64,000 nt of DNA from assembly GCA_018333525.1 (NCBI GenBank), contig JAGXTF010000105.1, positions 1-64,000 on the forward strand, read 5' to 3'. The notes beneath the pieces were generated by a model. That model was not told where the DNA came from and did no database searches. It saw only the letters and a program-made list of their open reading frames with translations. Position 1 is the stretch's first letter. Each line of letters opens with the position of its first letter. This document shows positions 1 through 768 of this stretch, in pieces. Source of the DNA: Bacteroidota bacterium. GTDB lineage: Bacteria; Bacteroidota; Bacteroidia; NS11-12g; UBA955. The position numbers were made by a program, and so were the translations under genes.

Positions 1-263
1 TGTCTATGCCATGGGCATTTCATGCACGGTATGGATGATCTTGATGCCCAGACTGCGCGGGCCTCTTAACTGCAACTGGCCACCACCCCGCGATCGCCTG
101 CGCCGCCTATTAATAATGGAATTCCCTCCAGCGCTTTGTTCTGCAATCACTCCACACTCACAAAAAAGGAGTCGAGAGGTCCATATGGATGATGTTTTTC
201 AGGTGTCAAACACAAAGTTAGAAGTCCGGTCCCGATGTCGGTTTCCGTTTTCAGCATTTTCGG

Positions 264-720
264 TTATCCGCGTCGCTGGTAATCGGCTGAAAGCCACCGG
301 AGGAATACGTGGGATGTCAGATGTCAGAAGTTAGATGTAAAATACAAACAGCCTTTCGAAGCCGTGTACCGTTGTTGGTGTTCGCTTTCAGCATCTCTGT
401 TTATCCGCGTCGCTGTTTTACTGCTGAAAGCCACCAACGACGCAAAGTCCCAGATAAATCTTCTTTCAAAATGAGTTATCCGCGTCGCTGGTAATCGGCT
501 GAAAGCCACCGGAGGAATACGTGGGATGTCAGATGTCAGAAGTTAGATGTAAAATACAAACAGCCTTTCGAAGCCGTGTACCGTTGTTGGTGTTCGCTTT
601 CAGCATCTCTGGTTATCCGCGTAGCTGTTATACGACTGAAAGCCACCAACGACGCAAAGTCCCAGATAAATCTTCTTTCAAAATGAGTTATCCGCGTCGC
701 TGGTAATCGGCTGAAAGTCA
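264..720. repeat. 212-bp tandem repeat (units 264-475 and 476-687, partial third from 688), each unit holding two copies of a TTATCCGCGTCGCTG hairpin-like core
   Basis: TTATCCGCG occurs at 264, 401, 476, 613 and 688 (alternating spacing 137/75, exact period 212). The unit also repeats GGGATGTCAGATGTCAGAAGTTAGATGTAAAATACAAACAGCC at 311 and 523. Confidence 0.95.
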
Positions 721-768
721 CCAACAACGCCCAACCTACCTGAATCCAACAGACACCGTCCTGCAATC

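Follow-up and report, generated by a model that had tools for sequence, protein, structure and literature searches.

What kind of element forms the tandem array near the start of this stretch of DNA (the window, 64,000 nucleotides in all), and how could it have come to be repeated? The preliminary description proposed five equal hairpin elements with a period of 212 bp. The periodicity is clearly present: five cores lie at 264, 401, 476, 613 (with one mismatch, TTATCCGCGTAGCTG) and 688, spaced 137/75/137/75, and TRF gives a period of 212 with 2.2 copies at 97%. Allowing up to 3 mismatches, the core matches the window 6 times against 0.54 expected, a number reached by 0/100 shuffles. The array comprises, however, three hairpins, in one of which the outer stem has decayed, together with two 3'-half copies (Table 1). 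An 11-bp outer stem, CGTTGTTGGTG/CACCAACGACG, is found in hairpin copies 2 and 3, the only complete copies in the window; in copy 1 the 3' side reads CACCGGAGGAATACG in place of CACCAACGACG and the outer-stem pairing is lost. The inner arms originally quoted for the first, second and fourth cores are all in the sequence, but the CTTTCA arm assigned to the third and fifth is linker, and neither the copy at 476, made up of the apical part and the 3' arm, nor that at 688 has an outer 5' arm. Duplication of the units by the assembly was rejected, since hairpin copies 2 and 3 differ by substitutions at several bases. About 230 nt separate the array from the end of contig C105, and its copy number may thus have been truncated by the assembly.

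Table 1. Features of the window array (positions 228-729) and RAYT-type genes of the genome. R1 and R2 are the covariance models of the long hairpins and of the short RAYT-flanking palindromes; copy numbers in brackets are those of the preliminary description.
Feature	Position	Strand	Evidence
Hairpin copy 1, outer stem decayed	228..312; core stem-loop 246-294	+	R1 E=3.9e-16; fold z = -0.81
Heptanucleotide tract GTGGGATGTCAGATGTCAGAAGTTAGATGT, first copy	309..338	+	sequence; pattern genome-wide only upstream of long hairpins
5' flank module CAAACAGCCTTTCGAAG, first copy	345..361	+	common to other loci
Hairpin copy 2, complete 73-nt three-tier (copy 2)	370..442	+	R1 E=6.6e-22; fold -30.4 kcal/mol, z -4.7; R2 E=2.9e-6
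3'-half copy (copy 3)	475..510	+	sequence; weak R1 match 463-505
Heptanucleotide tract, second copy	521..550	+	sequence; genome pattern search
5' flank module CAAACAGCCTTTCGAAG, second copy	557..573	+	common to other loci
Hairpin copy 3, complete 73-nt three-tier (copy 4)	582..654	+	R1 E=3.0e-21; fold z -3.4; R2 E=4.9e-6
3'-half copy, 3' outer arm intact (copy 5)	687..729	+	sequence; weak R1 match 675-717
RAYT-type gene	C59:61535-62050		protein search; NF047646 below cut-off
RAYT-type gene	C104:7649-8158		protein search; NF047646 below cut-off
RAYT-type gene	C58:58491-58997		protein search; NF047646 below cut-off

Alignment of copies from the whole genome shows that the unit is an imperfect hairpin of 73 nt built in three tiers, larger than the core plus arms of about 48 nt initially proposed. 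The outer stem of 11 bp (CGTTGTYGGTR/YACCRACRACG) is followed by a 3-nt 5' bulge, often TTC; above this come a middle stem of 9 bp (GCTTTCAGC/GCTGAAAGC), a 5-nt 5' bulge and a weak apical stem. When sample copies were folded as DNA, the outer and middle stems came out the same. Over 31 copies, 97.5% of the cells are paired in the middle stem and 94.1% in the outer stem, with 72.9% in the apical part; the apical stem is thus weakly supported, and it is the stems that are best kept and the apex that varies most, the reverse of the conserved loop and varying arms first described. The compensatory changes expected of a structured family are seen at a few pairs: columns 12/74 change from U-A to C-G in 12 copies, columns 16/70 from G-C to A-U or U-A in 10, and columns 20/68 from G-C to A-U in 5. 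For these 31 copies the covariation score exceeds those of all 500 shuffles and of all slid controls. The number of pairs with two-sided changes is matched by 202/500 shuffles, and so does not rise above chance, and related copies inflate the cell counts; the covariation evidence is therefore carried by a few stem pairs. The 5' flank of the hairpins is mostly NNYCCCG or NGTCCCG, and no unpaired GTAG or GTGG stands at the 5' foot. The hairpins carry no T-run, and we rejected the intrinsic terminator reading for this reason; a terminator scan gave only short sites near chance level. In the window, a terminator-like ACGGCTTCGAAAGGCTGT with a T-rich tail occurs on the minus strand within the 5' flank module (348-365 and 560-577), also near chance level.

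Many dispersed copies were to be expected of a structured family, and the genome contains them. Searched by pattern, it has 24 cores with at most one mismatch, and the covariance model R1 gives 39 matches at E<1e-5. Allowing for the overlap of contigs C43 and C111 (100% over 2052 bp) and for that of the C47 end with the C73 start, we put the family at about 35 copies in about 17 loci. They are dispersed and mainly intergenic, frequently arranged head-to-tail in arrays, in an assembly of 118 contigs of which several end in long-hairpin repeats. Their orientation relative to the lagging strand, judged by GC skew, has no bias, the skews being weak. Neither 56 relatives (E<=0.01) nor 107 other genomes of the order (E<=0.001) gave an R1 match. 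Relative to that sample the long family is confined to this genome; the statement is limited to the sample, since the runs on relatives used stricter filters, which lose weak matches, and since the genus is represented by this genome alone. One match in Planctomycetota, from an exact-pattern scan of 84,980 genomes, has no support from R1 and was taken as chance. We conclude that the long hairpins are a previously undescribed, REP-like, non-coding palindrome family.

Does the genome encode an enzyme that could act on such a family? A search with PF01797 returns seven Y1-type genes, of which five exceed the cut-off and are IS200-like in size and two score weakly; by protein search the latter two group with a third gene, missed by Pfam. 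All three match NF047646, the family of REP-associated tyrosine transposases (RAYTs), below its curated cut-off (Table 1), and a profile built from 13 homologues gives a match to the solved TnpA-REP structure 4er8 (E=3e-6). They carry NH[IF]H and Y[IT]HxNP, broadly the published motifs NH[LIV]H and Y-I-H-x-N-P, and a W motif followed by E or K, not Q. Judged by these residues the three fit TnpA-REP subclass 2.6, or RAYT group 5, broadly but not at every position (PMC6006769). One of them adjoins a gene for PorZ, a type IX secretion component, which, from what is established about that system, places the host in Bacteroidota. No long copy in the R1 census lies beside any RAYT, the nearest being about 31 kb away on C59, and none of the five IS200-type genes is flanked by long elements. 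A short palindrome lies about 320 bp from one IS200-type gene, at C118; tandem ACGACCCCTACNGGGTCG palindromes also occur downstream of an IS200-type Y1 gene (L083, 5227-5560).

What does flank all three RAYTs is a short palindrome with an outer stem GNNGGTN..NACCNNC, a 5' bulge that contains YTC and, at the apex, GCGNAGC or a near variant, and these palindromes show strong covariation. A covariance model built from just these 12 palindromes (R2) finds 68 short copies in the genome at E<1e-6. Applied to 221 kb surrounding the long elements, it detects most of them (best E=1.5e-6) and has no non-element match below E=5, and R1 in turn matches the palindromes beside the RAYTs. The long elements and the RAYT-flanking palindromes are thus of the same design. 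The association extends to relatives, where 47 TTGGT..ACCAA pairs lie within 450 nt of RAYTs against 2.7 expected from each genome's own background; the distal flanks of these loci, a longer stretch, hold 11, or about 6.5 after scaling. R2 matches in relatives fall in RAYT-positive genomes in 5/6 cases (p ~2e-4), two of these matches lying about 100 nt or less from the RAYT gene. The REP guess of the preliminary description was in this respect largely right: dispersal, stem changes, the RAYT genes and their flanking palindromes all support a structured, REP-like reading.

The same evidence bears on a structured RNA, cis-regulatory or small, in which the transcript of the + strand would fold. 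The stable fold, the compensatory changes and the G-U pairs, which favour one strand, are what such an RNA would have; but Rfam covariance models give no match to the window array, the genes flanking the long hairpins differ and are convergent, divergent or tandem with no constant context, and the strand polarity is explained without RNA by the design shared with the RAYT-flanking palindromes. We consider an RNA role, including the small RNA suggested at first, improbable.

How does the long family compare with known systems? 'Atypical secondary structures' flank the genes of subclass 2.6 (group 5) in Bacteroidetes (PMC6006769). Compared by description rather than by sequence, those structures and the palindromes of this genome agree in host group, in their position beside a RAYT gene and in having further genomic copies. 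It is the short sister palindromes, however, that flank the RAYTs; the long family does not, and differs also in its extra stem tier and in forming head-to-tail arrays only. With the group 2 REPs of Escherichia coli (PMC8266576) the long hairpins share an imperfect palindrome, a stem bulge and a dispersed, intergenic distribution, but those of E. coli are shorter, bear a GTAG and are arranged as inverted pairs (BIMEs). For tandem REP arrays whose spacing alternates there is already a precedent in Pseudomonas fluorescens SBW25 (PMC3116915), where GI-GIII REPs alternate at 112/72 bp as against 137/75 bp here; those arrays, unlike the present ones, are made of GTAG classes with an inverted doublet (REPIN) as the basic unit. 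CGTC-tagged REPs, short palindromes reported also from Bacteroidetes (PMC3733652), likewise lack a dedicated flanking transposase, but they have stems of 8-9 bp and an unpaired CGTC end, whereas the CGACG/CGTCG end of the long hairpin is variable and paired inside the 11-bp stem. The long family thus shows the many, mainly intergenic copies of classical REPs and departs from them in length (73 nt, compared with 20-50 nt for GTAG REPs), in the absence of a GTAG tag, in its purely head-to-tail arrays and in a companion heptanucleotide tract.

Structural details link the long form to one short subtype in particular. Short palindromes with a TTTCA upper stem (on C14, C115, C118, C58 and C90) are closest to it, and a 5' flank GAAGACG..CCCG, or one base off, precedes most short copies on C14, C115 and C118 and several long ones. 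Neighbouring long hairpins are head-to-tail in 20/20 pairs, some of these duplicated by contig overlap, with no inverted doublet as a unit, compared with 30 inverted and 7 head-to-tail pairs among the short palindromes; 6 of these 7 belong to the TTTCA subtype. Given this shared flank and layout, we take the long form to derive from the short palindromes by stem extension, although the reverse direction is also conceivable. Short RAYT-type palindromes also form BIME-like arrays of strictly alternating orientation (C12:75946-76476, C31:24125-24634 and C75:19254-19709).

Head-to-tail arrays of imperfect, ssDNA-type hairpins with extrahelical bases also recall integron attC sites. The outer ends, however, are CGTTGTY..RACRACG and not the RYYYAAC..GTTRRRY of an attC core site, and spacings of about 75-190 bp leave little space for cassettes, making recombination sites of this kind highly improbable. 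The spacers inside the arrays are near-identical, in keeping with the original view that this is not a CRISPR.

Are the hairpins then still mobile? They could instead be descendants of ancient REPs that nothing now moves, in arrays that change by slippage or unequal recombination. Copies are more similar within a locus (0.86) than between loci (0.73), which, like the near-identical spacers and the lack of a long copy beside a RAYT, suits such a fossil or purely local repeat. So does the comparison of C43 and C111, identical over 2052 bp but differing in array length: the same locus, at 1534-2064 of L029 (C111) and at the end of L025 (C43), has different numbers of a 193-bp unit. The within-locus similarity and this length difference support local array growth, although the latter could reflect strain variation or be an effect of the assembly. 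On the other hand, about 17 unlinked loci need some spreading process, and near-identical cores are still common to several distant loci. We regard a fossil or purely local repeat as rather unlikely.

We conclude that the long family is very probably REP-like and RAYT-related, and on balance we favour its spread by a RAYT in trans. A subclass 2.6 (group 5) RAYT, a TnpA-REP of the HUH Y1 type, would bind the single-stranded + strand of the long hairpin, recognising the GTYGGT / bulge / ACCRAC module, and would cut and rejoin the ssDNA beside it, allowing copies to spread; local duplication or slippage would then build the arrays. Such recognition in trans is proposed by analogy with E. coli TnpA-REP, which needs a single-stranded REP and its bulge (PMC8266576). 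Against RAYT-driven arrays, head-to-tail repeats could arise without any enzyme; at the long hairpins we saw no GTAG guide and no empty site, excision product or target rule. For the statement as a whole, that is, dispersal in trans by a RAYT, followed by local expansion, of a stem-extended REP-like family that is sister to the RAYT-flanking palindromes, we estimate a probability of about 0.55.

Experiments on how REPs spread have so far centred on GTAG REPs from Proteobacteria. The present genome combines three RAYTs of a subclass that has been little studied with about 70 short palindromes, mostly in inverted pairs, and about 35 enlarged, head-to-tail sisters, so that the choice of substrate and the formation of arrays can be compared directly. 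The pattern of GTYGGT, 5' bulge and ACCRAC also gives concrete form to palindromes that the literature calls 'atypical'.

Finally, the long hairpins have companion sequences. All 9 genomic occurrences of the pattern GATGTNAGAAGTNAGA are immediately upstream of long hairpins (7 independent sites after removal of contig overlap), and the 16-nt pattern of the heptanucleotide tracts, absent from the rest of the genome, has a single match in 1/56 relatives. Tracts of GATGTSA/GAAGTSA units directly precede many long hairpins, in the window and at loci on C43, C59, C76 and C111, and period-7 repetition upstream of the hairpins exceeds the 99% control at 7/17 loci, with about 0.2 expected. At about seven loci a full hairpin is followed by a 3'-half copy. 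Hairpin, tract, CGAAG module and 3' half might conceivably form one composite non-autonomous ssDNA element of about 150-210 nt that a Bacteroidota RAYT would move and deposit head-to-tail, in contrast to the REPIN of Proteobacteria with its inverted doublet; we offer this idea only tentatively and consider it doubtful. Two further sequences, CCACGAATTTCACGAATGA and GACAAGTCATGACTTGTC, recur beside degenerate hairpins in the downstream flanks of L070, L074, L075 and L076 and are apparently other small repeat families.
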